Source of the DNA: a virus
Virus record (IMG/VR): IMGVR_UViG_3300042691_013813
Coordinates: 1 to 34,194 of that record
Length of the DNA stretch: 34,194 nucleotides
Reading direction: 5' to 3' (one strand)
Of the stretch, positions 14,453 to 28,200 are shown piece by piece; the stretch's first letter is position 1; each line of letters begins with the position of its first letter. A program made the position numbers and the translations under genes. The notes under the pieces were generated by a model. It worked only from the letters and a program-made list of their open reading frames with translations, made no database searches and had not been told where the DNA came from.

Positions 14453-14594
14453 TCCCGTCCGCGTCGGCCCGAGTCTGCGAGGCCGCGTGTACGCGCTGGT
14501 GGACAACGAATGGCGGCTGTCGGCCAACGCCGTTGAGATCCCCGAGGGCTGGTATCTCGTACCGCCTTCGTTTGTCGAGGGTCCGCACGAATGA
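14361..14594 (+). CDS. Lipoprotein, o-spanin (Rz1)-like candidate
   Basis: The 77-residue product starts with a lipoprotein signal peptide, MRLAMTVALLALASGFVAGC, with lipobox V-A-G-C and the acylated Cys at residue 20. The mature part is about 57 residues and ends VEIPEGWYLVPPSFVEG. It should be anchored in the outer membrane. Together with the 14276 product it would form a spanin that disrupts the outer membrane after holin action. A GTG at 14343 is an alternative start. The gene overlaps 14276 in a different frame and overlaps 14591 by ATGA. The mature domain is less Pro-rich than typical Rz1. Confidence 0.6.
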   Translation: MRLAMTVALLALASGFVAGCGSRTILVPESSPVRVGPSLRGRVYALVDNEWRLSANAVEIPEGWYLVPPSFVEGPHE

Positions 14595-14788
14595 GGATCC
14601 TGCGGCCCCTTGAGATCGCACGCCGGATCGGCTGCACGCCAAAATATGTCGGCTACCTGATCGACAGCGGAAAACTCCGCGGATACAGGCTCCCGGGGTC
14701 GCTGCATCGGCGCGTCCGCGAGGATGTCCTAGATGCATTCATTCGCGATCGAATAGAGCAGAAGGGAACGCGCAAACATGGGATCTGA
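14591..14788 (+). CDS. MerR/excisionase-type helix-turn-helix protein, 65 aa
   Basis: The 65-residue basic protein reads as a winged-helix DNA-binding domain of the HTH_17 type: LEIARRIGCTPKYVGYLIDSGKLRGYRLPG, then HRRVREDVLDAFI. Such proteins act as excisionases or small regulators. No integrase is present, so an excisionase role lacks a partner. It overlaps the lipoprotein gene stop and the Cys-rich gene start, so it is expressed with late genes and could be a late regulator. Confidence 0.65.
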   Translation: MRILRPLEIARRIGCTPKYVGYLIDSGKLRGYRLPGSLHRRVREDVLDAFIRDRIEQKGTRKHGI

Positions 14789-16736: not shown

Positions 16737-17041
16737 GCACTCGACTCGGCTACATCCCCGACAACGCTGCGACGCGCATTACCGCGCAGCCGCCCGTCTC
16801 CACCACGGACACCCCCGCATCCGAGCCTGAGCCGACCCGGATGCGGGGGCTGGGGGACCTCGTCCACCGGGTGCTCGACGCCGTGGGCGTGGTCAAGTTC
16901 GTCAAGGCGCGGGAGCAGCAGACCGGGAAGGAATGCGGGTGCAAGCGCCGACGCGAGGCCCTGAACCGCGCTGTGCCGTTTGGCGGCGCAGGAGCAGCGC
17001 CAGAGCCTTCCGCGTCACGGACCCACTCGGAGCAGCCCTAG
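16733..17041 (+). CDS. Small protein with ECGC-KRRREALN motif, 102 aa
   Basis: The 102-residue protein starts at an ATGA overlap with the Cys-rich gene. Its centre carries GLGDLVHRVLDAVGVVKFVK followed by GKECGCKRRREALNRAVPFG. A similar small module (helix, V-K-F/V, CGC-x-x-R-x-x-x-LN) is common in tailed phages, function unknown. The N-terminal 35 residues are Pro/Thr-rich and look disordered, as does the C-terminal tail. It is the last gene of the rightward arm. Coupling to the Cys-rich gene suggests that the two work together. Confidence 0.6.
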   Translation: MSTRLGYIPDNAATRITAQPPVSTTDTPASEPEPTRMRGLGDLVHRVLDAVGVVKFVKAREQQTGKECGCKRRREALNRAVPFGGAGAAPEPSASRTHSEQP

Positions 17042-17062
17042 GCCACAGGGCGCTCCAGACGG

Positions 17063-17094
17063 GCGCGTGGAGGGCAGGGACGCCCTCCGCGTGC
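17063..17094 (+). terminator. Strong hairpin just after the rightward arm
   Basis: Positions 17063-17075 pair with 17082-17094 around a 6-nt loop; the core GGAGGGC/GCCCTCC is perfect and the outer part includes two G-T wobbles. It begins 21 nt after the last rightward stop codon. No T-run follows, so it would act as a 3'-end protector or a Rho-assisted stop. Confidence 0.5.
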
Positions 17095-17106
17095 ATGAAC
17101 GAAACA

Positions 17107-17139
17107 ACGACCCCCGGAGGAGCAATCGCCGGGGGTCGT
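17107..17139. terminator. Bidirectional terminator between convergent arms
   Basis: ACGACCCCCGG (17107-17117) pairs perfectly with CCGGGGGTCGT (17129-17139), an 11-bp stem with an 11-nt loop. On the minus strand the stem is followed by TTGTTTC, a U-rich tail suited to stopping leftward transcripts. On the plus strand there is no T-run. It lies between the last rightward and the last leftward genes. Confidence 0.65.
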
Positions 17140-17173
17140 CGCTAGGGAGAAGATGGACCGGGAGGATAGCAGA

Positions 17174-17202
17174 GGGAGAGCCGGAACCGTTCCGGCCCTC
17201 CC
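17174..17202 (-). terminator. Hairpin directly after the leftward arm
   Basis: GCCGGAA (17180-17186) pairs with TTCCGGC (17190-17196), and GGGAG/CTCCC extends the stem outward across one mismatch. It lies 14 nt beyond the stop of the leftward gene ending at 17216. There is no clear U-tract. With the two hairpins to its left it makes a cluster that insulates the colliding arms. Confidence 0.5.
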
Positions 17203-17215
17203 CTGCATCCGGTGG

Positions 17216-17575
17216 TCAGCAGGAGTGCGCGGCCTTGTGGCCGAACGCGGCCTCAATCTCGCGGTACAGGTCTTCCCTGATGGCCGACACGGCAAAGGCC
17301 GTGGCGAGCCGTTCGGACTTGTTGAAGTCGCCGCGCCTTCCCGACAGGATGCCGTAGAGGTCGCTGCCGTCCGCCGTATCCGCGATGACATCAATGGAGA
17401 GACGCAGCAGCCCGTCAATCGTCAGGACGATCTGAATGCCGTACGCGTAGTGGTCCTCCGGGCCGTTCGTGGCGATGACCTGCATGTTGAGCGCGTCAAG
17501 GCGGTTGCGCCACTCGTCGGTGTTGAGGGCGATGCGGAGGTCCTGTGCGGCGCGGCGAACGGTTCGGATGTTCAT
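17216..17575 (-). CDS. Hypothetical early protein, 119 aa
   Basis: I do not recognise the family. The 119-residue protein MNIRTVRRAAQDLRIALNTDEW... has a helical start, a strand-rich middle (GIQIVLTIDGLLRLSIDVIAD) and a charged helical end (LATAFAVSAIREDLYREIEAAFGHK). I start at 17575 because GAAGGAG sits 6 nt upstream; longer in-frame readings pass through the promoter cassette and are unlikely. It is a single-gene unit driven by its own copy of the early cassette (17582-17649) and ended by the hairpins at 17107-17202. Confidence 0.65.
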   Translation of the reverse strand: MNIRTVRRAAQDLRIALNTDEWRNRLDALNMQVIATNGPEDHYAYGIQIVLTIDGLLRLSIDVIADTADGSDLYGILSGRRGDFNKSERLATAFAVSAIREDLYREIEAAFGHKAAHSC

Positions 17576-17581
17576 GGCTGA

Positions 17582-17649
17582 CTCCTTCAGGGTTAGGCCG
17601 AGCGACATGCTCGACGGGTTGACTATACCTACTTCGGCGCAGGGTGCAA
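17582..17649 (-). promoter_or_regulatory. Early promoter-operator-hairpin cassette 1
   Basis: Reading leftward: -35 TTGCAC (17649-17644), 16-bp spacer CCTGCGCCGAAGTAGG, -10 TATAGT (17627-17622), 8 nt, hairpin CGAGC-ATGTC-GCTCG (17613-17599), then GAAGGAG (17588-17582) before the ATG at 17575. The predicted transcript starts within a few bases of the hairpin. Four other cassettes share the same boxes, spacing and leader. Confidence 0.8.
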
Positions 17650-17683
17650 GAGGTCTGCAGCATTTCCTGCGATTTTTCACAAT

Positions 17684-18043
17684 TCACGCCGAGCGCACGA
17701 TGCGCCCGGTGAATCGACGATCCTCGCGACGGCTGCGAAACACCGAAGCGGTGCTCTTGAGCGAACGCCATTGGCGCTTGTCGAGCACAACGCGATCACC
17801 CTTGCGGAACGGCGGGATCGGCTTGCCGTCGAAATTGTGGAATTGTCCCCACACCGTCACCCCTGCCGTCGTTGCGATGCAGACTTGCATGTAGGTCATC
17901 GGACGATGCGCCTGTCGGGTGCTTTGCCAACAGGACACTACCACGCCCTCAAACTCGCAATTTGCGTATGGCCCTCCGATGTCGTGCTGAAGAGACGCTT
18001 CAAACTTGGCCTTGGCTGCGGGGTCGATTGCGATGGGGTGCAT
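17684..18043 (-). CDS. Hypothetical early protein, 119 aa (possible OB-like fold)
   Basis: The 119-residue protein starts MHPIAIDPAAKAKFEASLQHD at 18043, with GAAGGAG upstream. The middle is strand-rich (GVTVWGQFHNFDGKPIPPF, RKGDRVVLDKRQW) and the C-terminus is very basic (SRREDRRFTGRIVRSA). Short beta-rich basic early proteins are sometimes single-strand DNA binding, but nothing here proves it. It forms a one-gene unit behind cassette 2 and ends shortly before cassette 1. Confidence 0.6.
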   Translation of the reverse strand: MHPIAIDPAAKAKFEASLQHDIGGPYANCEFEGVVVSCWQSTRQAHRPMTYMQVCIATTAGVTVWGQFHNFDGKPIPPFRKGDRVVLDKRQWRSLKSTASVFRSRREDRRFTGRIVRSA

Positions 18044-18049
18044 GGGTGA

Positions 18050-18116
18050 CTCCTTCGGTGCGTGACGGGCGACATGCCCGATGCAAACACAGTACCTATG
18101 TCGGCGTAGGGGTCAA
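18050..18116 (-). promoter_or_regulatory. Early promoter-operator-hairpin cassette 2
   Basis: Leftward: -35 TTGACC (18116-18111), 16-bp spacer CCTACGCCGACATAGG, -10 TACTGT (18094-18089), 8 nt, hairpin CGGGC-ATGTC-GCCCG (18080-18066), then GAAGGAG (18056-18050). Compared with cassette 1 the third stem pair is G-C instead of A-T: both sides changed, so pairing is kept. CTGCAGACC precedes the -35 box here and in cassette 1. Confidence 0.8.
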
Positions 18117-18126
18117 GGGGTCTGCA

Positions 18127-18189
18127 GAGAAAAAGGAAAAATCCCTCCCGGCGCTGTCGGACGCACCGGAAGGGACGGCAAGCGCCGGG
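18127..18189 (-). terminator. Intrinsic terminator of the ERF-Gp157 unit
   Basis: On the minus strand CCCGGCGCT (18189-18181) pairs with AGCGCCGGG (18155-18147), a perfect 9-bp GC stem closing a 25-nt loop. It is followed by AGGGATTTTTCCTTTTTC, a split U-tract. It lies 22 nt beyond the Gp157 stop and just upstream of cassette 2, so it separates the two units. Confidence 0.75.
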
Positions 18190-18210
18190 TGTCGCGCTCG
18201 CCTGTAGAGG

Positions 18211-18720
18211 TCAGCGGATGGAGAGGCGGACGCCGCGTTCCGCGAGCCGAGCGCCGGGGACGGCCTCGCCGCGCTCCAGCGCCTCCCGGATCGCGTCGCG
18301 GTCGATGGTCTGCGTCACACGGGGGACCACGAACTGCTCCGGCAGGGCCGCGTCGTCGTCCACTACGAGCGGGGCCTTGCCGCCGTTGCGCTGGACCCCA
18401 AGCGCGAAGCGGTCGGTGTGGACCTTCGTGCGACCCGTCGCCTGCATCGCCTGCAGCATGGTCTGCCGCAGGCGCTCCGCGAGCGCAGAGTCGGAGTCCG
18501 CCAGTTTCTGCATCCGCTTGGCCTCGTCGGCGCGAGCCTGCGCCCGGACCTCGCAGGTGCGGATGAGCGCCGCGTAGTCGTCGGCCTTGGCGTCAAACGC
18601 CTCGGCCAGCGCAGCCGCGTGCTCCGCAAGCGCCGCGTCCAGTTCCGCGCATTCTCCCCCGGTCGTGTCCGCGGCAGCAAGCACCGACTGCAGTTCCGCA
18701 GAGATGTGGTAGAGGCTCAC
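18211..18720 (-). CDS. Siphovirus Gp157-like protein
   Basis: The 169-residue protein MSLYHISAEL... matches the Gp157 plan: a short N-terminal segment, a long charged helix region (EAFDAKADDYAALIRTCEV, ADEAKRMQKLADSDSALAERL, a helix ending TGRTKVHTDRFALGVQRN) and a C-terminal beta part (VVPRVTQTIDRDAIREALERGEAVPGARL). Gp157 is an early siphovirus protein near recombination genes; a role in phage resistance was proposed in streptococcal phages. The GTG start at 18720 overlaps the previous stop (GTGA). A much longer in-frame extension upstream is only a shadow of the neighbouring gene. Confidence 0.8.
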   Translation of the reverse strand: MSLYHISAELQSVLAAADTTGGECAELDAALAEHAAALAEAFDAKADDYAALIRTCEVRAQARADEAKRMQKLADSDSALAERLRQTMLQAMQATGRTKVHTDRFALGVQRNGGKAPLVVDDDAALPEQFVVPRVTQTIDRDAIREALERGEAVPGARLAERGVRLSIR

Positions 18721-19223
18721 GACGCACCCCCGGTCAGGTGGTCGATCTGGTCCTTCATCGTCGCGATGCGGTTCGCCATCTCCGCGACGCTCATCCCGAG
18801 CATCTCGTTCTCCCGGGCGAGCCGTGCGACCTGTGCGCGGCTGCTGTCGCGGTCGCGGATCGCCTCGGTGCTGCGAATGACCTCCTGCCTCCACAGCGCC
18901 TGTATTTCCTCGCGTGCCTTGATCTCGTTGGCCTCGTTGAGCCGCGCCTCGGTGACGAGCGGCAGTTCCTCGCGCTCGTCCAGCCAGCGTTGCCCGATCA
19001 CATCCTTCGCGTACTCCGCGCTGTACGGCTCGCAGTATTCCGCGTTGGCGATGTGCTGCAGGGCGACGAGGTAGACGCGCTGGTCGCGCTCCGCGGCCTC
19101 CAGAGCCGCGACGCCCTCGCGCCACACGGTCACGATCCGCTCCATGTACTGGTGTCCGGGTTCGGCGGCGACCGCCTCGCACCGTGCCAGTTCCGCTCGC
19201 ATGTCATCCAATGCCGTGCTCAT
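18717..19223 (-). CDS. Coiled-coil early protein, 168 aa
   Basis: The 168-residue protein starts at ATG 19223, overlapping the previous stop. It is highly charged and almost wholly helical. The last 60 residues look like a coiled coil (RDRDSSRAQVARLARENEML, SVAEMANRIATMKDQIDHL). The N-terminal half also carries helical stretches (DDMRAELARCEAVAAE). No catalytic motif is seen. It is encoded between the 69-aa protein and Gp157 with coupled starts, so a structural or adaptor role in the recombination unit is plausible. Confidence 0.6.
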   Translation of the reverse strand: MSTALDDMRAELARCEAVAAEPGHQYMERIVTVWREGVAALEAAERDQRVYLVALQHIANAEYCEPYSAEYAKDVIGQRWLDEREELPLVTEARLNEANEIKAREEIQALWRQEVIRSTEAIRDRDSSRAQVARLARENEMLGMSVAEMANRIATMKDQIDHLTGGAS

Positions 19224-19429
19224 TGCTTGGTCTCCTTGAAGCAATCCCACCCCAGTTGCCTAGCCACGCCTCGCGGATCGTCATACGACTGAGCGCACAC
19301 AAGACGCCGCGCCTCGTCGCGCTCGGCGCGTAGGCGTTCGATCTCGTCGGCGGCTTCGCACTTCACGCAGTTGCACCCATACTTGTCCGCCGCCGCTCCG
19401 CGCAGCCGCGTCACGATGTCATCCGTCAT
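19220..19429 (-). CDS. Small early protein with CxxC, 69 aa
   Basis: The 69-residue protein MTDDIVTRLRGAAADKYG... continues CNCVKCEAADEIERLRAERDEARRL. It has the widespread phage pattern of a D-I-V-x-R-L-R start and an A-A-D-E-I-E-R-L-R-A-E-R-D helix. C-N-C-x-x-C could bind a metal. GGAGGCGAA precedes the ATG at 19429. Function is unknown. Confidence 0.6.
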   Translation of the reverse strand: MTDDIVTRLRGAAADKYGCNCVKCEAADEIERLRAERDEARRLVCAQSYDDPRGVARQLGWDCFKETKQ

Positions 19430-19574
19430 TTCGCCTCCGGTCGCTGCGAGCCGCCCTGAGTTCCGCTTCGATGCGCTCAAGGCATCTCGCGATGCGGTTG
19501 CACTTCCAATCGATCAGGATGAACCCGGCAAACGAGACGAGGAACCACGGGCCGACGATGCACGCGTCAAACAT
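19419..19574 (-). CDS. Small membrane protein, 51 aa
   Basis: A 51-residue frame beginning at ATG 19574 encodes MFDACIVGPWFLVSFAGFIL, a membrane segment, followed by IDWKCNRIARCLERIEAELR and a basic tail. Its start overlaps the stop of the 19567 gene and its end overlaps the start of the 19429 gene by 11 nt, so it fits exactly in an otherwise empty stretch of a tightly packed unit. One-span proteins of this size are common among early phage genes. No function can be given. Confidence 0.5.
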   Translation of the reverse strand: MFDACIVGPWFLVSFAGFILIDWKCNRIARCLERIEAELRAARSDRRRNDG

Positions 19575-19812
19575 CCGTCCCCCGAATCTCCGCGGCCTCT
19601 CCCCGCAGGTTGGTGTTGACCGTTGGCGGGAACTCGACGCCGCGCTGTTCGATCCATGCGCGGTCGAGGTCCTCGGCCCCGCCGCTCCCGAGGTGCTCCA
19701 GCATCATCTCCCGCATCTGCTCCTCAAGGCAGGTCGCGAGCGCAATCGTTCGGTTGTAGCGCGTCGCAAGGCGCTTCCATCGTTCCTGCGGGGTGGGTGT
19801 CTTCGTCGTCAT
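19567..19812 (-). CDS. Hypothetical early protein, 81 aa
   Basis: The 81-residue protein MTTKTPTPQERWKRLATRYN... is helical in its first half (RTIALATCLEEQMREMMLEHL) and ends in an extended acidic segment. GAGGAG lies 6 nt before the ATG at 19812, only 11 nt after the ERF stop, so it is read in the ERF unit. Longer in-frame readings enter the ERF gene and are rejected. I do not recognise the family. Confidence 0.6.
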   Translation of the reverse strand: MTTKTPTPQERWKRLATRYNRTIALATCLEEQMREMMLEHLGSGGAEDLDRAWIEQRGVEFPPTVNTNLRGEAAEIRGTDV

Positions 19813-19822
19813 GGTGTGCTCC

Positions 19823-20623
19823 TCAGTAGGGAATCTCGGGGTCCGAGCCGACATAGGAAACCGCCTTGCAGCCTGTCGCCTTGTAGAACCCGGCGGGGTC
19901 CCACTTCCACGCGATCTCCGCGAGCCGACCGACCTCGACGCCGTCAATCTGCAGGTACTCGCCGGGGAACGAAACCCACACGCTCCCGTGAACCGGGTGA
20001 GAGCAGAACACGGCAATCACGCCAGCGTCGCGCTCGACCGCCCGGATGAGCATGACCGAGTCCGAGCCTGCGTCAGGCCAGCGGCGCGTCGCATCGGGCT
20101 TCGCCGCAGGCGCGGCCTTGGGAGCCTCCGCGGCCTTTGCTGGCGCGGCGCGGCGCGTCGGCGTGGGGTCGAGCAGGTCGCGGGTAGACGGCGCAGGGGC
20201 AGGCGTGGGGCGCTGCGGCTGACGGGCCTCGCGGTCCTCGTCCGCGTCGGTGTCGTCGTCGCCCGTCAGCATCAGGGCCGCGGCCATCGCGTAGCGGCGC
20301 AGGTAGGTCACGACAGCGCCAAGGTTCTGCGCGGTCGCCTTGTCCGGGAGCACCATGCCCACGGTCGAGCGCATCCACTCTCCGCTGATGTGCGCGACCT
20401 GCGTGGAGACGCTGACCTCGTTGCCGTGGCTGTTGACTCCTTGCGTCAGGATCAGACCGTTCCGCGAAAGCGGCTCGCGGATCGCGTCGATGTGCGAACC
20501 GAGCGTCGCGTACCGGAAGCCCTTGAAGTGGGGGTGCGCCTTGTCAAGCGCGGGATTTCGGATCTCGCCCTGCGCCTTCGCGAGTGCCGCAACCAGCGCG
20601 GCGATGCTTTCACTCTGCTGCAT
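19823..20623 (-). CDS. erf: ERF family single-strand DNA annealing protein
   Basis: The 266-residue protein carries the ERF domain at about residues 1-135: HPHFKGFRYATLGSHIDAIR, then GEWMRSTVGMVLP, and AQNLGAVVTYLRRYAMAAAL followed by the acidic DDDTDADED. ERF proteins anneal single strands for recombination and genome circularisation. A Pro/Ala-rich linker (about 140-180) leads to a C-terminal beta domain of roughly 85 residues (VMLIRAVERDAGVIAVF, VWVSFPGEYLQIDGVEVG) that I do not recognise. RusA is encoded just upstream in the same direction and Gp157 downstream. The gene has its own promoter (20650-20706). Confidence 0.9.
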   Translation of the reverse strand: MQQSESIAALVAALAKAQGEIRNPALDKAHPHFKGFRYATLGSHIDAIREPLSRNGLILTQGVNSHGNEVSVSTQVAHISGEWMRSTVGMVLPDKATAQNLGAVVTYLRRYAMAAALMLTGDDDTDADEDREARQPQRPTPAPAPSTRDLLDPTPTRRAAPAKAAEAPKAAPAAKPDATRRWPDAGSDSVMLIRAVERDAGVIAVFCSHPVHGSVWVSFPGEYLQIDGVEVGRLAEIAWKWDPAGFYKATGCKAVSYVGSDPEIPY

Positions 20624-20649
20624 GTTCTCTACTCCATGCGGTGCGTGAT

Positions 20650-20706
20650 GCGCGGCGACGGTCGCCGCGCCTGTGGAAATGTAGGGTATGTCAATCCGCG
20701 TGTCAA
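20650..20706 (-). promoter_or_regulatory. Variant early promoter with hairpin (ERF unit)
   Basis: Leftward: -35 TTGACA (20706-20701), 17-bp spacer, -10 TACATT (20683-20678), then a hairpin of 8 bp (20670-20663 with 20657-20650) with 5-nt loop ACCGT, 7 nt after the -10. The hairpin at the 5' end is kept, but the palindromic spacer of the other cassettes is missing. Its sequence downstream (TCACGCACCG) is shared with cassette 2. The -35 box overlaps the RusA stop. Confidence 0.65.
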
Positions 20707-21122
20707 GCGCGGCAGATGCGGATCATCGCGCCGGGGATCTCGCCGTCCTTGCACCAGACGCGCTCGACGCGCAGCGTGCAGACCTGTCGGTCGTTGCGAT
20801 ACGCGATCCCCGCCAGCGCGTCGAGCACGGCGCGTGCGATCTTGTCGCAGTCTCCGTAGCCCGGGCGCTCCGGCGCGGACGGGCGCAGCGTGCCGCGCCG
20901 TCCGAAGTGCGACGCTGGTCGCGCATAGCGTGCGAGGATCTCGACGGACACGCCAGCGTCGATGATGCGGACGCCAGCGTCGAGGGCGCAACCCGCGACG
21001 GTCGAGCGCCACGGGCGCAGGTTCTTGCTCGACTCCAGCATGAGCGGACGGCCCGAGCGCGAGCGGACGAGGCGCTTGCTGCCTTGCGTCACCGGGATCC
21101 CGGGTACGAGGAACTCACGCAC
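20703..21122 (-). CDS. rusA: RusA-type Holliday junction resolvase
   Basis: The 139-residue protein has the RusA layout: N-terminal FLVPGIPVTQGSKRLVR, then GYGDCDKIARAVLDALAGIAYRNDRQV. D91, D93 and D101 are the candidate metal-binding acids, with N110-D111 after them. RusA dimers cleave Holliday junctions and other branched DNA, which suits partnership with ERF. I start at GTG 21122, which overlaps the preceding stop; an in-frame reading back to 21440 is a shadow of other genes. Length is normal for the family. Confidence 0.85.
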   Translation of the reverse strand: MREFLVPGIPVTQGSKRLVRSRSGRPLMLESSKNLRPWRSTVAGCALDAGVRIIDAGVSVEILARYARPASHFGRRGTLRPSAPERPGYGDCDKIARAVLDALAGIAYRNDRQVCTLRVERVWCKDGEIPGAMIRICRA

Positions 21123-21288
21123 GGGGCGCGTGCCGCTTGTTGTTGACGACGAGCGAGACCGCTGCGGGGCTGATCCCGAACAGCAGCGCGATGTTCTTCT
21201 GCGGGAGTCCGCTGGCGGCGTGCGAGCGTATGGCGGCGACTTCGTGCGGCTGGAGTTTGCGACGGCGTCGTTTGCGTGGGGTCTGCAT
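21115..21288 (-). CDS. Small helix-turn-helix protein, 57 aa
   Basis: The 57-residue very basic protein (start MQTPRKRRRRKLQPHEV) contains AAIRSHAASGLPQKNIALLF followed by GISPAAVSLVVNNKR, a clear helix-turn-helix of the kind found in resolvase-like and phage regulatory proteins. It probably binds DNA. Its stop overlaps the RusA start. It may regulate the unit or target RusA, but that is inference. Confidence 0.65.
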   Translation of the reverse strand: MQTPRKRRRRKLQPHEVAAIRSHAASGLPQKNIALLFGISPAAVSLVVNNKRHAPRA

Positions 21289-21316
21289 GGATCGGGATCG
21301 TACCCTGCGCGGACGG

Positions 21317-21619
21317 TCATGCGAGCCTCCAGACACGAATGATGCGCCCGTGCGTCGAGGGACGGAGCGACTGCCGGACCTCGCCTGTCCACTCCATGCC
21401 GCGGAACACGCTCCCCGCGGCGTTCCCGAGCGCCTCCCACGACGAGCCGCGGAGGTGCATCTCCATCGCCACATCGTCGGCATGGACGCAGCCGTGGCGC
21501 TGCGCCAGTTCCTGCGCGATGCCCTGCGCGACGGCCAGCAGTTCGCGTCGGGCGCTCGCGGCCCGGGCCATGCCCTCCTCCTTGCGGCGCTCGGCTTCGG
21601 CAAGATCAAACAGCGTCAT
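21317..21619 (-). CDS. Hypothetical early protein of a common phage type, 100 aa
   Basis: The 100-residue protein starts MTLFDLAEAERRKEEGMARA, continues with a long helix, and ends with HADDVAMEMHLRGSSWEALG, AAGSVFRGMEWTGEVR and HGRIIRVWRLA. This sequence plan (helix, D-D-V, L-G-N-A-A-G-S-x-F-R, H-x-R-x-I-R-V-W) recurs in many phage early regions. Function is unknown; the C-terminal half looks like a small winged-helix fold. The start overlaps the end of the 21606 gene. Confidence 0.65.
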   Translation of the reverse strand: MTLFDLAEAERRKEEGMARAASARRELLAVAQGIAQELAQRHGCVHADDVAMEMHLRGSSWEALGNAAGSVFRGMEWTGEVRQSLRPSTHGRIIRVWRLA

Positions 21620-21806
21620 GCGGGACCTCCTGCGCGATTCGCTCGCGCTCGACTCGGACAGACAGCGGGGCGTGGATCACGGCCTTGCAGCGGGTGGGCT
21701 TCTCGGGGGTGAGGTCCACGCGGATCTCGGTCCCGCCGATCAGGAACAGCAGCCGCTCCCGGGTGCAGCGCACCGTGGTCACGACGCAGGCGACGCGGTC
21801 ATTCAT
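21606..21806 (-). CDS. Hypothetical early protein, 66 aa
   Basis: The 66-residue protein MNDRVACVVTTVRCTRERLL continues FLIGGTEIRVDLTPEKPTRC and ends in a basic/acidic helix. It is probably a small beta-rich fold. The start at 21806 overlaps the stop of the 21799 gene, and its end overlaps the next start, so it is a real link in the coupled chain. No family recognised. Confidence 0.55.
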   Translation of the reverse strand: MNDRVACVVTTVRCTRERLLFLIGGTEIRVDLTPEKPTRCKAVIHAPLSVRVERERIAQEVPHDAV

Positions 21807-22176
21807 CGTCGGCCTCCTCGGTGCGCTGGAGGTCGGACATCTCGGTGCGGACGATGTCCTCGACGCATTGCGCGAATTGCGCGGCGAGGATCTCCGGGCT
21901 GTCCCCGGATCGGATGTCGCTCGTCGCCTCAATGAGCAAGAACCGCGGGTCCCCGCGTTCGCGGACGATCATCGTCCACACATCCCACCGCTCCTCGACG
22001 GTCCCCGCGTCCTCGTCCCGCAGGCGGTGCAGGTGCGGCGTCCCGTTCACGAACAGGAACCGGACCGCGTTGCTGCGGCACTCTGCCGGGAACGGCGGGA
22101 TGCGCTCCAACACATCGGGCGGCACGGACGACTCCCGCACCATGCGGAACTGCATGTTGTCAAATCGGCCCTTCAT
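21799..22176 (-). CDS. Hypothetical acidic early protein, 125 aa
   Basis: The 125-residue protein starts MKGRFDNMQFRMVRESSVPP and has an alpha/beta pattern (NAVRFLFVNGTPHLHRLRD, WDVWTMIVRERGDPRFLLIE) and a very acidic C-terminal helix (CVEDIVRTEMSDLQRTEEAD). The ATG at 22176 overlaps the stop of the small membrane protein gene. I see no catalytic signature. Confidence 0.55.
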   Translation of the reverse strand: MKGRFDNMQFRMVRESSVPPDVLERIPPFPAECRSNAVRFLFVNGTPHLHRLRDEDAGTVEERWDVWTMIVRERGDPRFLLIEATSDIRSGDSPEILAAQFAQCVEDIVRTEMSDLQRTEEADDE

Positions 22177-22292
22177 CGGCGGCTCCTCCGGCCCTTGCGG
22201 ACGCTGTTGAGGTTTGCGGCAAGGCTGCAGGCGGCGAGCACCGCCGCGACGGTCAAAAAGAACACGAAACCCGGCTCAAGTTCGGTCTGCAT
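22173..22292 (-). CDS. Small membrane protein, 39 aa
   Basis: A 39-residue frame starts at ATG 22292 behind a strong GAGGAGA site. It encodes MQTELEPGFVFFLTVAAVLA, then ACSLAANLNSVRKGRRSRR: one membrane span with a basic cytoplasmic tail. Its stop overlaps the start of the 22176 gene (ATGA). It fills the gap between two real genes. Function unknown. Confidence 0.55.
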   Translation of the reverse strand: MQTELEPGFVFFLTVAAVLAACSLAANLNSVRKGRRSRR

Positions 22293-22302
22293 GGGAATCT
22301 CC

Positions 22303-22764
22303 TCAGCCGCAGAATGCGGCGTTCTTGGTGCGGCAGGCGTCGCAGCAGTAGATGCTGTGCTCGGAGTCCCCGAGCACGGTCAGGTTGTCGATGGGGTGGG
22401 TGGACTCGCACCACTCGCAGGTCGCGCAGTCCTGCGCCCCCGACAGCAGGTGCTCGTCCTCCGCGCACCAGACGATGTCGGAGACCATCGCGTCGATTTC
22501 CCGAGCGAGGACCCGGATCTTCGCGAGCGCCGCGTGCGGACAGATACGAGCGAACTCGTGCGACCACCGCGGACCGTCGTTGCGGTTGATGTACTCGCTC
22601 ACCAGCAACTGCAGCACGACGATCTTCGCGTGCAGCGCGGTGCGCTCGGGCTGGGAGATAACAACGGCTCGTCCAGAGGATCGCAGCGGCAGGGTCGTGC
22701 CGAGCAGCGCGGCTCCGTTGCTGATGGCGGCACGGGCGAGGACGATGGACTTCGGTTCACGCAT
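22303..22764 (-). CDS. Early protein with C-terminal zinc-ribbon-like cysteines, 153 aa
   Basis: The 153-residue protein begins MREPKSIVLARAAISNGAAL. The N-terminal two thirds are helical and basic; the last 45 residues hold DCATCEWC and, 21 residues later, YCCDAC, a spacing that fits a zinc ribbon. It may bind nucleic acid or a host protein. The ATG at 22764 follows GAAGGAG of cassette 4. It is the first gene of a seven-gene chain ending with RusA, so it is the first expressed from that promoter. Confidence 0.6.
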   Translation of the reverse strand: MREPKSIVLARAAISNGAALLGTTLPLRSSGRAVVISQPERTALHAKIVVLQLLVSEYINRNDGPRWSHEFARICPHAALAKIRVLAREIDAMVSDIVWCAEDEHLLSGAQDCATCEWCESTHPIDNLTVLGDSEHSIYCCDACRTKNAAFCG

Positions 22765-22770
22765 GGCTGA

Positions 22771-22838
22771 CTCCTTCAAGTTGGGCGCGAGCGGCGTGCT
22801 CGGCGGGTTGACTATACCTACTTCGGCGCAGGGCGCAA
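22771..22838 (-). promoter_or_regulatory. Early promoter-operator-hairpin cassette 4
   Basis: Leftward: -35 TTGCGC (22838-22833), 16-bp spacer CCTGCGCCGAAGTAGG, -10 TATAGT (22816-22811), 8 nt, hairpin CGAGC-ACGCC-GCTCG (22802-22788), GAAGGAG (22777-22771). The loop differs from the ATGTC of the others while the stem is unchanged. Just upstream are two adjacent perfect palindromes, CCCTGCAGGG (22841-22850) and AATCTCGCGAGATT (22851-22864). Confidence 0.8.
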
Positions 22839-22865
22839 GGCCCTGCAGGGAATCTCGCGAGATTT

Positions 22866-22890
22866 CCGGGGGCGGTCGCATCGCCCCCGG
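22866..22890 (-). terminator. Stem-loop after the leftmost-starting early gene
   Basis: CCGGGGGCG (22866-22874) and CGCCCCCGG (22882-22890) form a perfect 9-bp stem with a 7-nt loop, 7 nt beyond the stop of the 22898 gene. No U-tract follows on the minus strand. It lies directly upstream of cassette 4 and probably reduces read-through into that promoter. Confidence 0.5.
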
Positions 22891-22897
22891 CGCGAGG

Positions 22898-23446
22898 TCA
22901 GGCGGCGAACATCGCCTTGACCTCGGCCTCGGGCGTGAACTTGCCGTTCACATACAGACGGGCGGGGAACTGCGGGAACCATCCTGCGCGGCGCGTGTAC
23001 TTCCACACGATGCGCTGACGCAGGTCAAGCACCGCGTCGCCCTTGCGGACCTGCATGTCGATGTTCGCGCCGTTCATCCAACACAGGGTGCAGGAATCGA
23101 CCGTGCCGAACTTCCCGAGCAACTTCTTGTGCCACGCGAGGAGAGCGTGGATCGCGTCCTCGCGAGCGACGCGCTCGACCTTGGCGTTGTCGATCTGTGC
23201 GCTGTAGACGAGGCGTCCGCGGAGGTCACCCGTTCCGTAGCGGTAGGAGGCGCTGAAGCGCATCGACCGCTCCGCGAGCGCGTCGTAGCGGTTCTGCAGG
23301 GTGAACCCCATGCCGTCCTCCAGCGCGTACTCCGCGAGGTGACGGGCGAAGTCGGCGCGGATGCGCTCGGCAAACTGCGCGGTGAGCGCGTCGAGCGAGG
23401 AATTGACGAGGAGAGCGTTCGCGATGGGGTCGGTCGGCAGGGGCAT
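22898..23446 (-). CDS. Hypothetical early protein, 182 aa
   Basis: The 182-residue protein starts MPLPTDPIANALLVNSSLDA. Its first half is helical (LTAQFAERIRADFARHLAEYA), and the second has strand-rich parts with a CTLCW pair (about residues 118-121) and ends FPARLYVNGKFTPEAEVKAMF. It is the first leftward gene next to the divergent control region and sits alone behind cassette 5, so it is probably the earliest leftward product. GAAGGAG precedes the ATG at 23446. No family recognised; a host-takeover role is only a guess from position. Confidence 0.6.
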   Translation of the reverse strand: MPLPTDPIANALLVNSSLDALTAQFAERIRADFARHLAEYALEDGMGFTLQNRYDALAERSMRFSASYRYGTGDLRGRLVYSAQIDNAKVERVAREDAIHALLAWHKKLLGKFGTVDSCTLCWMNGANIDMQVRKGDAVLDLRQRIVWKYTRRAGWFPQFPARLYVNGKFTPEAEVKAMFAA

Positions 23447-23452
23447 GTCTGA

Positions 23453-23520
23453 CTCCTTCAGGGTTAGGCCGAGCGACATGCTCGACACGGGTACAATACC
23501 TTCGTCGGCGTAGGGGTCAA
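23453..23520 (-). promoter_or_regulatory. Early promoter-operator-hairpin cassette 5
   Basis: Leftward: -35 TTGACC (23520-23515), 16-bp spacer CCTACGCCGACGAAGG, -10 TATTGT (23498-23493), 8 nt, hairpin CGAGC-ATGTC-GCTCG (23484-23470), GAAGGAG (23459-23453). The spacer is a near-palindrome, CCTACG against CCTTCG after inversion. The leader after the hairpin is nearly identical to that of cassette 1. Confidence 0.8.
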
Positions 23521-23523
23521 CCC

Positions 23524-24120
23524 CTCTGAAGCGATTTTTGGAAGTTTGTCGAAAAAAGTTTCCGGCTCGGAAACACAGCGACCCGCACTTGCATCGGCAG
23601 CGCGGGTCGCTATTGTGTGCCTCGGCTGCGCTCACCGTCTCGCAAAGACGAGCGCCGCCGACATCGAACTGGCGGTCGCATTCTACCGCCTCATGCCGCC
23701 AGCGGCAAGATTGCAGCGTCAGCGTGCGCTCCGTCCACGCAGTTAGAGGGCGCGGCCACAGGCCGCTCCGACGCCGGGTCTGACCCTACCCGGCGCATCC
23801 TCCCCGGAGGATCGCTCCTGCATCGTGGTAGCGGCTGGCCCAGCGAAATGGTGAAAACGATGCCTTGGGAAACCTCGCGGCGGCTCCGAGCGGCTGCGCC
23901 TCCCCATGACCTCGCACACACGGGGTCATGGTGTTCCTGCGGTCTCACCAAGCAACTGCGGAAACGCGCCGCAGGCGCGCCGAGCGCCCGAGCGCAGCGA
24001 GGGCAACCTCCGGTCTGGTGGGAGTCGGTGGGCGTCCCCCGCCCCTCGCTGGGCCTCCAAAGTAGCCCGAGCGAGGCGGCGGAAGAAAATTGCAGAAATG
24101 TTGCGCCGAATCCTCAAGTG
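23524..24120. other. Divergent intergenic control region, about 600 bp, rich in hairpins
   Basis: No convincing gene is seen between the leftward cassette 5 and the rightward cassette 6. Successive inverted repeats include 23577-23586/23602-23611, 23752-23757/23761-23766, 23772-23779/23788-23795, 23797-23802/23807-23812, 23904-23914/23921-23931 (11 bp, one G-T, loop CACACA), 23965-23970/23974-23979, and the longer-range 23995-24003/24043-24051. Such a structured divergent region could hold an origin, a packaging or recombination site, or a structured RNA. The sequence alone does not decide. Confidence 0.55.
23577..23611. terminator. Hairpin upstream of cassette 5
   Basis: AGCGACCCGC (23577-23586) pairs perfectly with GCGGGTCGCT (23602-23611), a 10-bp stem with a 15-nt loop. 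On the minus strand it is followed by GTGTTTCCG, weakly U-rich. It could shield cassette 5 from leftward read-through or be part of the control region structure. Confidence 0.4.
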
Positions 24121-24123
24121 GGG

Positions 24124-24191
24124 TTGCACCCTGCGCCGAAGTAGGTATAGTCCACGCATCGGGCATGTCGCCCGGTCCAACCCTGAAGGAG
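24124..24191 (+). promoter_or_regulatory. Early promoter-operator-hairpin cassette 6 (rightward)
   Basis: Rightward: -35 TTGCAC (24124-24129), 16-bp spacer CCTGCGCCGAAGTAGG, -10 TATAGT (24146-24151), 8 nt, hairpin CGGGC-ATGTC-GCCCG (24160-24174), GAAGGAG (24185-24191), ATG at 24197. The spacer and both boxes are identical to cassette 1 although the orientation is opposite. It starts the rightward early transcript. Confidence 0.8.
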
Positions 24192-24196
24192 TCAGC

Positions 24197-24682
24197 ATGT
24201 TTCAGATCCACAGCAGCGACGAGAACTACCAGCCGCAAGGCGAGCCGCTCGCGACCGCGAGCACCTACGCGCAGGCAAAGGAACTGGCGGCGGAGCACGC
24301 CGCTGGCAGGATGTACGGAACGGTCATCGTCACCCCGAACGATGCGGTCATCTGCGGCGACGAGACCGCGGAGGAACTGTCCGCCATTCTTGCGGAGTGC
24401 AACGATGACGCGCAGGCTAAACTTGTGGACCGCCTGCGCGACGCGGTCGTGAGCCGCCTGCAGGTACTTGCAAGCCTCGGGACCTCGGGTCGGCAGTTCG
24501 ACACCCGTGAGGATGCTTTCTATCGCCTCGGTCGCGTCCACGGCGCGATTGATGCGCTGGAAATCGTCGTCAACTCCCGCGAGACTCCGGCGTGGATTGC
24601 GGAACTGTCGATGCAGGCAACCGACGCCTACAGGCAGGCGCTCGCGAACATCGCGCTGAACGCGAAGGGGGGTGCAGCGTGA
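24197..24682 (+). CDS. Hypothetical rightward early protein, 161 aa
   Basis: The 161-residue protein starts MFQIHSSDENYQPQGEPLAT. An N-terminal beta/alpha segment (STYAQAKELAAEHAAGRMYG, TVIVTPNDAVICGDETAEEL) is followed by a wholly helical C-terminal half (VDRLRDAVVSRLQVLASLG, VHGAIDALEIVVNSRE). I start at 24197, 5 nt after GAAGGAG; a frame open back to 23906 runs through the promoter cassette and is not used. The family is not recognised. It is the first gene of the rightward early transcript and overlaps the next gene by GTGA. Confidence 0.6.
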   Translation: MFQIHSSDENYQPQGEPLATASTYAQAKELAAEHAAGRMYGTVIVTPNDAVICGDETAEELSAILAECNDDAQAKLVDRLRDAVVSRLQVLASLGTSGRQFDTREDAFYRLGRVHGAIDALEIVVNSRETPAWIAELSMQATDAYRQALANIALNAKGGAA

Positions 24683-24909
24683 GCCGCCCCGGAACCGTCG
24701 CCGCTGCCGACGCCGCGATGCGCTATGTGCGCGAGATGCGTGCCGCCTGCCGGACCTGCCGCACGCACGCTCGGCACGGCGCGAAGGGGTTCACGCGCAT
24801 GTGGGAGCAGTCCGAGGCCGACGCGTGGCGCGAACTCGCGACCGCAGCCGCGGCGCTCTCCGCAGCAGCAGCCGAGGTTGCCGAGCGCATGGAGCAAAAA
24901 CAAGGTTGA
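24679..24909 (+). CDS. Small helical protein with CxxC, 76 aa
   Basis: The GTG at 24679 overlaps the previous stop. The 76-residue protein MSRPGTVAAADAAMRYVREM continues RAACRTCRTHARHGAKGFTR and ends in an alanine-rich helix (WRELATAAAALSAAAAEVAE). C-R-T-C-R-T-H-A-R-H has two Cys and two His and might bind a metal. Function unknown. Confidence 0.5.
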   Translation: MSRPGTVAAADAAMRYVREMRAACRTCRTHARHGAKGFTRMWEQSEADAWRELATAAAALSAAAAEVAERMEQKQG

Positions 24910-24934
24910 CGCGCACCCTCCGCGTAGGTAGGCT
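24906..24934 (+). promoter_or_regulatory. Promoter of the helix-turn-helix gene, predicted leaderless
   Basis: TTGACG (24906-24911), 17-bp spacer, TAGGCT (24929-24934), then 6 nt (TCCCCC) and the ATG at 24941. No Shine-Dalgarno sequence is present, so the mRNA should begin at or next to the start codon. The spacer reads GCACCCTCCGCGTAGGTA, close to GCACCCTGCGCCGAAGTAGGTA in cassettes 1 and 6 with four central bases missing. Confidence 0.6.
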
Positions 24935-24940
24935 TCCCCC

Positions 24941-25213
24941 ATGTCCAAGGCAACGAAGTTCAGGCTTGATACCCCGATGGATTGGAAACTGGCGATGCAG
25001 CGCCGGATCGCGTCGCAGGGCCAGTCCCGCTACCAGTTCATCTGCGAGGCCGTCGCCAAGGGCCTCTGCGCCCGTCACAGCGCCGAGTGCCTGCTGGCGG
25101 ACCCGGACACGGTCACGGGCCAGCGGGTTCCGAGCCTGCAGACCGCCATTGAACTCGCACGCGCCGCGGGGATGGACCTCGTCCTCGTCACCCGCGGGGA
25201 CGCGGTGGGGTGA
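24941..25213 (+). CDS. Helix-turn-helix regulator, candidate early repressor, 90 aa
   Basis: The 90-residue basic protein has DWKLAMQRRIASQGQSRYQF, ICEAVAKGLCARHSAECLLA and QRVPSLQTAIELARAAGMDL, the helix pattern of XRE-like helix-turn-helix domains (about residues 20-80), ending in a short strand VLVTRG. It has no effector or cleavage domain. It sits in the control region beside the divergent promoters, and its own promoter carries a variant of the spacer palindrome found in the early cassettes. It is therefore the best candidate to bind those operators and its own promoter. Repressor or activator role is inference. Confidence 0.65.
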   Translation: MSKATKFRLDTPMDWKLAMQRRIASQGQSRYQFICEAVAKGLCARHSAECLLADPDTVTGQRVPSLQTAIELARAAGMDLVLVTRGDAVG

Positions 25214-25263
25214 ACCGGGTACGATTCGTCTGACCAGTTCAACCTAAACCACAAGGCGAACAA

Positions 25264-25584
25264 ATGAAACCAACCACACCAATCGCATGGAAGCGCACCG
25301 CTCGCAGGGCATCCGCAACGCAGGACCCGGTCGCGGAATACGACGCAATCATCGGTGGAGCGCACTTCGGCGCGATTGAGGCCCAGTTCGATTCCATCGA
25401 CAGGGGCTACACGAAGATGGCGTCCTACACCTATGCGCTGAACGGATACACCGCATGGACGCGAAATCACTTTGACGAGGTGCAGTTCCCCGTCAGCCGA
25501 TACGGGTCGTCGCAGTCGGCGCTCGCAGCCGCAAAGGGCTGGGTCGCAGAGCAGTCGAAGCGCCCGTGGACTCCGGTTGGGTGA
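25264..25584 (+). CDS. Hypothetical protein, 106 aa
   Basis: The 106-residue protein starts MKPTTPIAWKRTARRASATQ, with an AAGGCGAAC site before the ATG. The middle is Tyr-rich (GYTKMASYTYALNGYTAWTR) and the end is a basic helix followed by WTPVG. No known motif. A TACGAT box at 25220-25225 about 38 nt upstream may be its -10. Its stop overlaps the ATG of the GP88-like gene (TGATG), so the two are coupled. Confidence 0.55.
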   Translation: MKPTTPIAWKRTARRASATQDPVAEYDAIIGGAHFGAIEAQFDSIDRGYTKMASYTYALNGYTAWTRNHFDEVQFPVSRYGSSQSALAAAKGWVAEQSKRPWTPVG

Positions 25585-26291: not shown

Positions 26292-26755
26292 GCAATCCCA
26301 GCGACCAAACCCCAAGCGACCGCGGGGGGCCTGCGGGGGGGTCTGAGCGACGCACCCGGTGGGAGCGCCGGATGCACCTGCGGTGTCTGGAGGCAATCGT
26401 CTACGACGGCTGGCAGGTCCCGGCATCGGCGTTTGCCGACCTGCCGCGCAACCTGCACGACATCCTGCAGGACCCGGCACAGAGCACCCGAGACCGCATC
26501 CGCGCAGGCGAGGCGCTCGCGCACCTCGTCGCGCACCGGGCCGACGCTGCCGTGCAGTACGACAGGATCATGCGCCTTGACGCAGGCGAGGCGACCGACC
26601 GCATCGCGGTCTACGACTCGCTCTCCGACGCGCAACTCGCAGCCGTCGCGGCAACCCTGCGACGCTCCGCACCGACATGTCCACCAGATTCTCCCGCGCC
26701 CGGAAAGCCGCAGCCCGAGCCGCAGAAGCCTCGCCAGAGCCGCAGGCGGTCCTGA
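26288..26755 (+). CDS. Terminase small subunit candidate
   Basis: The 155-residue protein lies directly before and overlaps the large terminase by 79 nt in another frame. It is helical (RMHLRCLEAIVYDGWQVPA, NLHDILQDPAQSTRDRIRAG, EALAHLVAHRADAAVQYDRI) with a disordered Pro/Arg-rich C-terminus. Small terminases bind the packaging site and stimulate the large subunit. The assignment rests on size, helical content and position. A clear helix-turn-helix is not seen. Confidence 0.6.
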   Translation: MSNPSDQTPSDRGGPAGGSERRTRWERRMHLRCLEAIVYDGWQVPASAFADLPRNLHDILQDPAQSTRDRIRAGEALAHLVAHRADAAVQYDRIMRLDAGEATDRIAVYDSLSDAQLAAVAATLRRSAPTCPPDSPAPGKPQPEPQKPRQSRRRS

Positions 26756-28188
26756 CCGCCCCAGACGCCGTGCAGGCCGCTCGGGACAGCCCCGAGGCGT
26801 TCCTCGCGCTGGCGCTCGGGCGCACCGTCAGCGAACTGCAGCGCACCCTGCTGGCGCACGCTCTGAGCAACCTGTCGTGGTACGCGGAACTGCCCCGCGG
26901 ACACGCCAAGACCTCCACGCTGTCCTACCTTTGCGCGTGGTGGTTGGGCGTCCGGCCCCAGAGCCGCATCAAGATCGTCAGCCAGAACGACGAGGCGGCT
27001 ACCGCGACGACTCGGTTCGTGCGCGAGATTGTCCGCGGAGCCGCGTTCCGAGCCGCGTTCCCGGAGGTCAACCTGAAGCCCGGGGAGGACAGCGTCACGG
27101 CGTGGACCGTGGTCGCTCCGGGCGTCGAGCGTGGGCGCGACCCCTCGGTGCAGGGGTCCGGCGTGTTCGGGCGCACAGGCGGTCGCGCCGATGTCATCTG
27201 GTTTGACGATATCTGCGACCTGCGGAACGCCGTCCTGCAGCCCCGCCTGCGGGAGCAGGTCAAGGAGGCGGTCCGCAACATCTGGATGCCGATGCTCGAC
27301 CCCTCGGCGCAGGTCGTGCCGAGGTCGTGGCGCTCCGCGACGCCGTTCCACACGGACGACATCACGGCAGAGTGGAGGCGGGAGCACGGCGCGTCCGGCT
27401 CGCTGCTCCGCACGCCGTGCGACGGGGACCGCAGCCCGTGGCCCGAGGTGTTCACCCCCGCAGTCCTCCACCAGAAACGCGCCGAGATGGGAGCGATGGC
27501 CTACGCCCGGGCGTACGAACTCGTCCCCGTCAGCAGCGACCTGCTGGTGTTCCAGCCCGAGTGGCTGCGCTACTACCGCGCCGACCAGAAGCCCAAGGTC
27601 ACGCGGACCGTCGCCGCGGTGGATTGGGGATACGGGCGGCGCTCGCAGGAACGCGACGATCCCGACTACAGCGTCTGCATCGTGGGGGAGATTGACGCCG
27701 AGCGACGGCTGTACCTGACCGACATCCTGCGCGTGCGCGAGCCGTTCCCGACATTCGCACGCATGGCGGCTGCGCTGCTTGACAGACGCGGCGCATCGGT
27801 CGTGCTGGCCGAGGCGAACGGGCCGCAGCGCGGAATCTTCGACCAGTTCGCGGAGATCACGCGACAGCCGATGCTGGCGGTCGAGCGCACGATTGACAAG
27901 CACCTCCGCGCCGCTGGGGCGCAGCCCTTCGTGCAGGGCGGGAAACTGCTGCTGCCTGCCGACGACGCCGGATCGGTGCGACCGGAGTTTACATGCGTGG
28001 TGGACGAGATGCTCGCCTTCCCGGCTGGGGCGCACGATGACACGGTCGATGTAGTCGTGGACCTGTGCGGTGAGGCTGTGCGCGGGTCGCTGTCAAGCGC
28101 CGACCTTAGTGTCAAGCGAATCGAACGGCCCGACGCGATATCTCGCATGTTCGGCGCGAGTCGCGCTCGCAAGCCGTTTTTCGGGTGA
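26677..28188 (+). CDS. terL: Terminase large subunit
   Basis: The 503-residue protein has the terminase ATPase and nuclease. A degenerate Walker A, PRGHAKTS (73-80), follows a Q-motif-like helix; Walker B is VIWFDD (173-178). The nuclease domain shows VAAVDWGYG (D316) and a late AHDDTVDVVVD acidic cluster. It cuts concatemers and pumps DNA into the prohead. The ATG at 26677 lies inside the small subunit gene; a GTG at 26770 is an alternative. Neither has an obvious Shine-Dalgarno sequence, so translation is probably coupled. Confidence 0.92.
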   Translation: MSTRFSRARKAAARAAEASPEPQAVLTAPDAVQAARDSPEAFLALALGRTVSELQRTLLAHALSNLSWYAELPRGHAKTSTLSYLCAWWLGVRPQSRIKIVSQNDEAATATTRFVREIVRGAAFRAAFPEVNLKPGEDSVTAWTVVAPGVERGRDPSVQGSGVFGRTGGRADVIWFDDICDLRNAVLQPRLREQVKEAVRNIWMPMLDPSAQVVPRSWRSATPFHTDDITAEWRREHGASGSLLRTPCDGDRSPWPEVFTPAVLHQKRAEMGAMAYARAYELVPVSSDLLVFQPEWLRYYRADQKPKVTRTVAAVDWGYGRRSQERDDPDYSVCIVGEIDAERRLYLTDILRVREPFPTFARMAAALLDRRGASVVLAEANGPQRGIFDQFAEITRQPMLAVERTIDKHLRAAGAQPFVQGGKLLLPADDAGSVRPEFTCVVDEMLAFPAGAHDDTVDVVVDLCGEAVRGSLSSADLSVKRIERPDAISRMFGASRARKPFFG

Positions 28189-28194: not shown

Positions 28195-28200
28195 GGGAGC

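Follow-up and report, generated by a model that had tools for sequence, protein, structure and literature searches.

Promoter–hairpin cassettes in the window

Between 17.5 and 24.2 kb, IMG/VR virus record IMGVR_UViG_3300042691_013813 (hereafter the window, the whole 34,194-nucleotide stretch that was analysed) carries five copies of a control cassette that joins a promoter, a putative operator and a hairpin, in both orientations (Table 1). An original prediction made from the letters alone had placed these units, and we found all five where it put them: each has a −35 box, a 16-nt spacer, a −10 box, exactly 8 nt and a 15-nt hairpin with a 5-bp stem and a 5-nt loop. The hairpin is followed by 9–10 nt (corrected from 8–10), the box GAAGGAGTCA, 2–3 nt and the ATG; the outer limits first given for the units ended inside this box and were slightly short, the box of cassette 1 extending to 17579. 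The window spacers read CCTnCGCCGAnnnAGG; CCTGCGCCGAAGTAGG occurs three times together with the two variants originally quoted, giving five matches and none for the backward-read pattern. The genes behind the five cassettes code for unrelated proteins, as had been proposed (best E 0.96 in a five-protein blastp), and that of cassette 1 had no family match in library scans.

A sixth, diverged unit, alike in geometry but with an unrelated spacer and a longer hairpin, precedes a gene identified as ERF (Pfam PF04404, E 3.9e-19). With this unit included the window holds six full cassettes, compared with none in each of 60 first-order Markov surrogates. The window scan listed no cassette outside 17.5–24.2 kb, a stretch that contains ERF, Gp157 and RusA-like genes. 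In units 17582 and 23453 the leaders agree base for base over a stretch of 38 nt in front of unrelated genes, and the 23453 unit is unlike its counterpart in contig G001; the suggestion that the units arose by cassette duplication is plausible on these grounds, short of proof. Relatives of the cassette 4 gene were found by tblastn in 6 of 19 loci searched (five G contigs), and a cassette-like unit stands in front of the gene in three of the five contigs (G002, G008 and G015). One control protein of this search, p19224, had been translated out of frame and supports no claim made here.

Table 1. Coordinates of the cassettes, the diverged unit and neighbouring features in the window.
Feature	Position	Strand	Promoter elements	Hairpin	GAAGGAGTCA box	Gene or remark
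Cassette 1	17579–17649	−	TTGCAC 17649–17644; operator-like spacer 17643–17628; TATAGT 17627–17622	17613–17599, loop ATGTC	17588–17579	17575–17216, 119 amino acids
Cassette 2	18047–18116	−	TTGACC, spacer CCTACGCCGACATAGG, TACTGT	18080–18066, CGGGC-ATGTC-GCCCG	18056–18047	18043–17684
Cassette 3	22768–22838	−	TTGCGC, spacer CCTGCGCCGAAGTAGG, TATAGT	22802–22788, CGAGC-ACGCC-GCTCG	22777–22768	22764–22303
Cassette 4	23450–23520	−	TTGACC, spacer CCTACGCCGACGAAGG, TATTGT	23484–23470, loop ATGTC	23459–23450	23446–22898
Cassette 5	24124–24194	+	TTGCAC, spacer CCTGCGCCGAAGTAGG, TATAGT	24160–24174, CGGGC-ATGTC-GCCCG	24185–24194	from 24197
Sixth, diverged unit before ERF gene	20650–20706	−	TTGACA, unrelated 17-nt spacer, TACATT, 7 nt	20670–20650, 9 bp, GCGCGGCGA-CCG-TCGCCGCGC, loop outside ANGYY consensus		ATG at 20623
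Terminator-like stem and T run	18141–18176	−				would separate cassette 2 from upstream Gp157 gene
Predicted leaderless promoter of 24941 gene	24906–24940	+	TTGACG, 17 nt (includes ACCCT, CGTAGG), TAGGCT, 6 nt, ATG			
Candidate regulator (24941 protein)	24941–25213	+				90 amino acids, predicted HipB/XRE-like helix-turn-helix fold, family-conserved

Terminator-like sites number 9 in 9 kb against 5.0 expected (standard deviation 2.2), which makes them weak evidence. Between the divergent cassettes 4 and 5 lie about 570 bases (23540–24110) that show several inverted repeats and lack an evident gene; an origin or a non-coding RNA may be located there. A scan of 17000–25500 against Rfam 15, taken to E 1, gave two sub-threshold matches within 17020–17208 and none on the cassettes or on 23540–24110. 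Elsewhere, a 1158-residue open reading frame (28201–31677) has an FSRPGAKAAF-like motif in multiple copies, which may be repeats of a scaffold or serve protein processing. A 65-residue excisionase-family DNA-binding protein (14591–14788; TIGR01764, 30.0 bits for a cut-off of 28.8) is encoded far from the cassettes, between open reading frames of no clear function; no integrase was found among the proteins scanned in library searches, which covered part of the open reading frames. The record ends are apparently repeated (1–413 and 33782–34194), 20-base words from positions 1, 101 and 301 reappearing 33,781 bases further on and the word at 201 not doing so; such a pattern is seen in genomes that are circular or terminally redundant.

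Conservation of the cassette and its hairpin

Relatives were gathered by terminase searches (20 loci), a terminase alignment search (the best 80 of 160) and an ERF search (5). The pooled set of 83 sequences, nearly all of them terminase relatives from IMG/VR, comprises 66 fetched loci and 17 contigs (the window and 16 others, the latter whole), with the repeat L084 excluded. Identical sequences were counted once, related phages remaining as non-independent rows, and one row of alignment A2 misplaced by the aligner was retained. Hairpin-defined promoters are present in 37 of the 83, and the geometry of the cassette is kept in relatives, so that the loss there which the original prediction had named as fatal to the idea did not occur.

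We scanned for the cassette from both of its ends. In the promoter-first scan of the 83 sequences the hairpin was not required: sites had TTG-n15..18-TAnnnT followed within 90 nt by a Shine–Dalgarno (SD) box and an ATG open reading frame of at least 45 codons. A hairpin starting no more than 14 nt past the −10 was found at 99 of 133 distinct sites, where shuffled leaders predict 17.6. Nine permuted box pairs gave hairpins at 6–29% of their sites; a tenth, GTT/TAT, gave 23 in 37, which we read as largely true sites one base off. In the hairpin-first scan, 52 of 110 GCANGYYGC stems had both the −35 and −10 in place, 43 of these at exactly 15 nt, against 0/130 (reverse complement), 0/49, 0/36, 0/10 and 0/21 for five controls (0/246 in all). 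A sixth control, CGANGYYCG, gave 2/18, matches that may stem from genuine hairpins before the ERF genes of G014 and G016 (apex CGACGTTCG). The Markov surrogates, the shuffled leaders and the hairpin-first controls together rule out a chance origin of the cassettes.

In the IMG/VR collection 20 contigs, with 21 stretches between them, carry an exact form of the cassette, 19 of these contigs being already among the gathered relatives; the other, L144, codes for relatives of ERF, Gp157 and the 24941 protein. Of 14 stretches from a scan with the exact spacer, 10 are without cassettes and were rejected as relatives; the other four, from contigs 3300008267_000720 and 3300008459_000842, contain them. 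Among 50,697 phage records there was no match for 26677–31677 (megablast), for cassette 5 in 24110–24200 (blastn) or for the 24941 protein (tblastn), and the terminase had 23–26% identity among the matches listed (15 of 130 records). Terminase-related genome contigs were two from metagenome-assembled genomes (42–44%), and the promoter–hairpin scan listed no site in either. No description of a phage cassette of this kind was seen in searches of open-access papers. Judged from sequence, the cassette is a trait of a family of uncultivated tailed phages.

The original prediction took the hairpin as one part among several; comparison puts it in another light, the hairpin being kept while the spacer is replaced. 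We counted loops by position in 49 of 50 distinct 19-mers, even-loop hairpins (18 of 99) being excluded; GCGT even-loop hairpins, though outside these counts, were treated as cassettes in the spacer-dyad, within-genome and Mantel analyses below. Loop position 1 is A in 44 of 49, position 3 is G in 45 and position 5 is C or T in all 49, giving ANGYY. The loop is closed by C-G in 46 of the 49 hairpins, and in 43 the pair below it is G-C, so that the apex reads GC-ANGYY-GC.

The stems covary. Among 43 of the 50 distinct 19-mers, a set picked by an A-N-G or GCGTT loop with stems already present, 65 cells changed on both sides compared with 16.8 after shuffling, and none of 500 shuffles reached 65; the covariation score was 0.609 against 0.165 for shuffled and 0.022–0.105 for slid controls. 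In a selection made free of any pairing requirement, at least five consecutive pairs were present in 38 of 143, against 2.5% when arms were swapped between rows. Moreover, the outer stem often has U·G pairs (UG in 9 of 42 at columns 2–18), which argues that the hairpin acts as RNA, and from its sequence the element looks like an RNA structure. One explanation of a different kind, that it is a DNA palindrome bound past the start site by a protein dimer, has in its favour a position of about +1 to +19, common for repressor sites, but is most improbable given arms that vary freely yet stay complementary, the frequent U·G pairs and a loop that is asymmetric and conserved, since a dimer site would conserve its half-site sequence.

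The hairpin is locked to the promoter. Its apex centre lies exactly 15 nt past the −10 in 56 of 81 hairpins, while its distance to the ATG spans 1 to 60 nt. Transcription usually starts 7 nt past the −10, and with an apex at 15 nt the predicted start thus falls next to the stem foot, about two bases away at most. In 30-nt folds from the predicted start, all five window leaders form the hairpin. One lineage (L089, L090, L092, L094, L096, L100, L108–L111, L113, L114 and L116; for example L100:3284–3400) carries another hairpin in its leaders, a few nucleotides ahead of AGGAG and with the loop CGGAC or CGGAT (25 of 39 second stems, among 59 leaders of sufficient length). CsrA-type sites combine a GGA loop with a GGA in the SD box, an arrangement that this second hairpin resembles.

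Two known kinds of element invite comparison. The N4 virion RNA polymerase promoter is a hairpin with a 3-nt loop and has no −35 or −10; here both boxes are present and the loop consensus is 5 nt. The start-associated sequence (SAS) of Cluster K phages is a 13-bp asymmetric GGGATAGGAGCCC just upstream of start codons (PMC3203893, PMC12699233), and the extended SAS (ESAS) consists of 17-bp imperfect inverted repeats with a variable spacer and departures that do not support RNA pairing (PMC12699233). SAS and ESAS share with the cassette the repetition of short elements before many start codons of one phage group, a start-linked box with an upstream inverted repeat and a lineage-specific repeat consensus (PMC12699233). 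By the definitions given there, the cassette differs in its box, which is GAAGGAGTCA, in a short hairpin (15 nt in the window) that covaries strongly as RNA and is locked to the −10, and in a separate operator-like motif inside the promoter spacer.

The spacer and the 24941 protein

Spacers are alike within a genome and different by lineage (similarity 0.661 within genomes versus 0.427 between; maximum 0.522 in 300 label shuffles), the behaviour expected of an operator for a diverging regulator. CCC-n-GGGG spacers are found in L089, L090, L092, L094, L096, L100, L108–L111 and L114, and CCGATATACC- or CCGTA-like spacers in G009, G010, L117, L119–L121, L123, L124, L134 and L135, G013 being mixed. 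The spacer had been described as an imperfect palindrome; an imperfect dyad is present, but the window spacers are not significant against shuffles of the same letters, two of them matching at five of six arm positions (p 0.100 and 0.105) and the commonest at four (p 0.88). In the family, 36 of 61 spacers match at five or more of the six positions.

A repeated operator-like motif that overlaps the promoters and is common to the cassettes of one genome is what marks a phage repressor regulon. Such regulons, with operators in many promoters, include the L5 stoperators and lambda CI/Cro, and lambda cI is expressed leaderless from PRM. The cassettes resemble them in their repeated, lineage-specific operator-like sites, a small predicted helix-turn-helix (HTH) protein and its predicted leaderless expression, and differ in the placing of the sites, inside the promoter between −35 and −10, and in their coupling to an RNA hairpin.

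The predicted HTH protein in question is the 24941 product, which the original prediction had already put forward. It has relatives in all 37 cassette-bearing sequences and in 63 of the 83 overall, and by tblastn in 16 of 19 loci searched. Its predicted model (predicted local distance difference test score 87.5) has four helices of at least four residues and matches HipB best, alongside other HTH proteins (Z 8.5, root-mean-square deviation 2.1 over 72 aligned residues; best Foldseek E just 0.019); there was no match in NCBIfam, Pfam or PHROG. An early reading as a ribbon-helix-helix protein, based on a single sequence, was dropped because the alignment and model give an HTH-like helix set.

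In 29 of 57 distinct loci a −35/−10 pair stands so close to the 24941 gene that its start codon falls 5–8 nt past the −10, compared with 0 of 116 for six control genes, and hence its message is predicted to be leaderless. In several sequences (L090, L100, L108–L111 and L114) this promoter carries CCCC-n-GGGG arms like their own spacers. The promoter resembles own-genome spacers at 7.46/10 and those of other genomes at 6.79/10, a slight difference over 24 testable sequences that is given here as descriptive rather than as a significance test. Its presence in 37 of 37 cassette sequences, its HTH-like fold and its leaderless promoter make the protein a sensible candidate, and the best one, for the regulator. 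Inverted repeats flank GGTTGACGCT right before the homologue in G004 (L052, just before 7093; arms CCCTGTTTC...GAAACAGGG) and G003 (L050, just before 14454).

A proposed mechanism and its alternatives

The strong computed features of the family, namely the boxes and their spacing, the covariation, the family-wide conservation, the lineage-specific spacers and the leaderless regulator gene, lead us to propose, at about even confidence, a repressor-controlled regulon whose mRNAs have a 5′-terminal protective hairpin and a conserved loop with a probable specific partner. Several non-structural genes driven by closely similar promoter cassettes would make up one regulon, for which the early timing given in the original prediction is putative. 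Initiation by the host RNA polymerase would take place about 7 nt past the −10, no more than about two bases from the hairpin foot. The first part of the mRNA would then be a triphosphorylated stem-loop, almost blunt-ended, with apex GC-ANGYY-GC, and an unpaired strand with the SD box would come next. The spacer between −35 and −10 would be an operator closed by a phage HTH protein, most likely the 24941–25213 product; this would be made from its leaderless promoter and, in the lineages that appear to carry their own operator there, would repress itself. The double-stranded 5′ end would shield the message from 5′-end-dependent decay of the RppH and RNase E type and leave the ribosome site free, and the conserved loop would probably bind a further specific partner.

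To our knowledge, known 5′-terminal stabilizing stem-loops serve single genes and have no conserved loop, unlike the cassette, where one apex sequence serves a whole regulon and phage family. The likeness to these elements (ompA and papA type; PMC3997798) lies in a stem-loop where the mRNA is predicted to begin, the SD box being outside the stem, and that review reports that paired 5′ ends hinder RppH and RNase E (PMC3997798).

More tentatively, GC-ANGYY-GC may be a new RNA recognition element, read by a phage or host protein on the emerging mRNAs of the regulon. It would then be a second, RNA-level switch on top of the promoter operator, to which the CGGAY-loop hairpin before AGGAG in one lineage would add a CsrA-like third layer. 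The DNA and RNA layers would evolve separately, because the operator is replaced between lineages and the apex is kept in outline.

Several observations weigh against the proposed mechanism. For the operator, dyads across the family average 4.64/6 versus 4.11 in shuffles, with p ≤0.03 in only 7 of 61 spacers, and the window's 24941 promoter has only a partial operator-like match. Co-divergence of operator and 24941 protein was discarded as proof: the plain Mantel r of 0.654 fell to a partial r of 0.109 given terminase distance (115/2000, not significant), so the correlation is explained by phylogeny, and this part of the case for the protein did not hold. For the recognition helix the partial r was −0.152, and terminase given 24941 still reached 0.382.

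The non-significant partial Mantel test and the partial promoter match speak for an alternative, less probable than the 24941 product, in which the spacer is bound by another protein, either a host regulator or a phage HTH protein such as the 57-residue product of 21115–21288, which matches phrog_517 (HTH DNA binding protein). However, tblastn found relatives of the latter in 4 of 19 loci compared with 16 of the same 19 for 24941; 24941 relatives accompany every cassette sequence, and the CCCC-n-GGGG arms recur in the 24941 promoters named above.

For the hairpin, 60-nt folds of leaders 22838 and 23520 favour another structure. The loop drifts with lineage, ATGTC being commonest in one, AGGTC in another and GCGT with ACGTT in a third, a drift that stays within or near the ANGYY outline. 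Pure protection leaves the conservation of the loop unexplained, which is why a further partner is needed, and protection from RppH or RNase E would presume such enzymes in the host. The ERF promoter of G003 has no hairpin. Of 66 GCANGYYGC-type hairpins with an SD box and open reading frame close behind, 14 are without the strict −35/−10 pair, some of them showing weaker boxes by eye. Five of the 14 (L108:4375, L108:8918, L109:5132, L111:3924 and L140:386(−)) look promoterless by eye, behind a stop codon; such copies warn that the element need not stand at a 5′ end and can also act elsewhere. These five are GC-rich and seemingly intergenic, with apex GGGCGGGCACGTTGCCCGCCC in four and GGGCCGGCACGTCGCCGGCCC in one.

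Translational operators such as those of the MS2 coat protein and T4 gp43 suggest a further reading, in which the main task of the hairpin is to be bound by an RNA-binding protein, of phage or host origin, that turns translation across the regulon on or off. The apex, conserved while stems vary freely, the copies before genes without promoter boxes and the second hairpin just before the SD box in one lineage are consistent with this. We nevertheless consider it unlikely, since an apex fixed to the −10 and an ATG distance of 1–60 nt are the opposite of steric control at the SD box; a hairpin whose spacing is constant from the promoter, and not from the SD box, favours a role at the 5′ end or in transcription.

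Still less probable is an antitermination signal, boxB-like as in nut or put-like, that would let polymerase with a phage factor read through into downstream genes. Lambda boxB is a 15-nt hairpin with a 5-bp stem and a 5-nt GNRNA loop, and the cassette hairpin shares its dimensions, its place in a phage leader and, at the predicted 5′ end of several units, a fixed distance from the promoter. Its loop, however, is ANGYY, with G as the first loop base in 4 of 49, and it stands at the predicted transcript start; no boxA-like box was seen by eye in the window leaders, with no tool search made for boxA, and the terminator-like sites of the region barely exceed chance.

If the protected, repressor-controlled regulon that we propose is correct, a whole uncultivated phage lineage would use a modular cassette of promoter, operator and RNA hairpin. 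The cassette offers a strongly covarying RNA motif, unmatched in Rfam on the scanned copies, together with one named candidate regulator. It may amount to a two-layer system of gene control, in which a replaceable DNA operator is paired with a conserved RNA hairpin at the 5′ end, and this combination makes the rewiring of a phage regulon, and the protection or marking of its mRNAs, testable.

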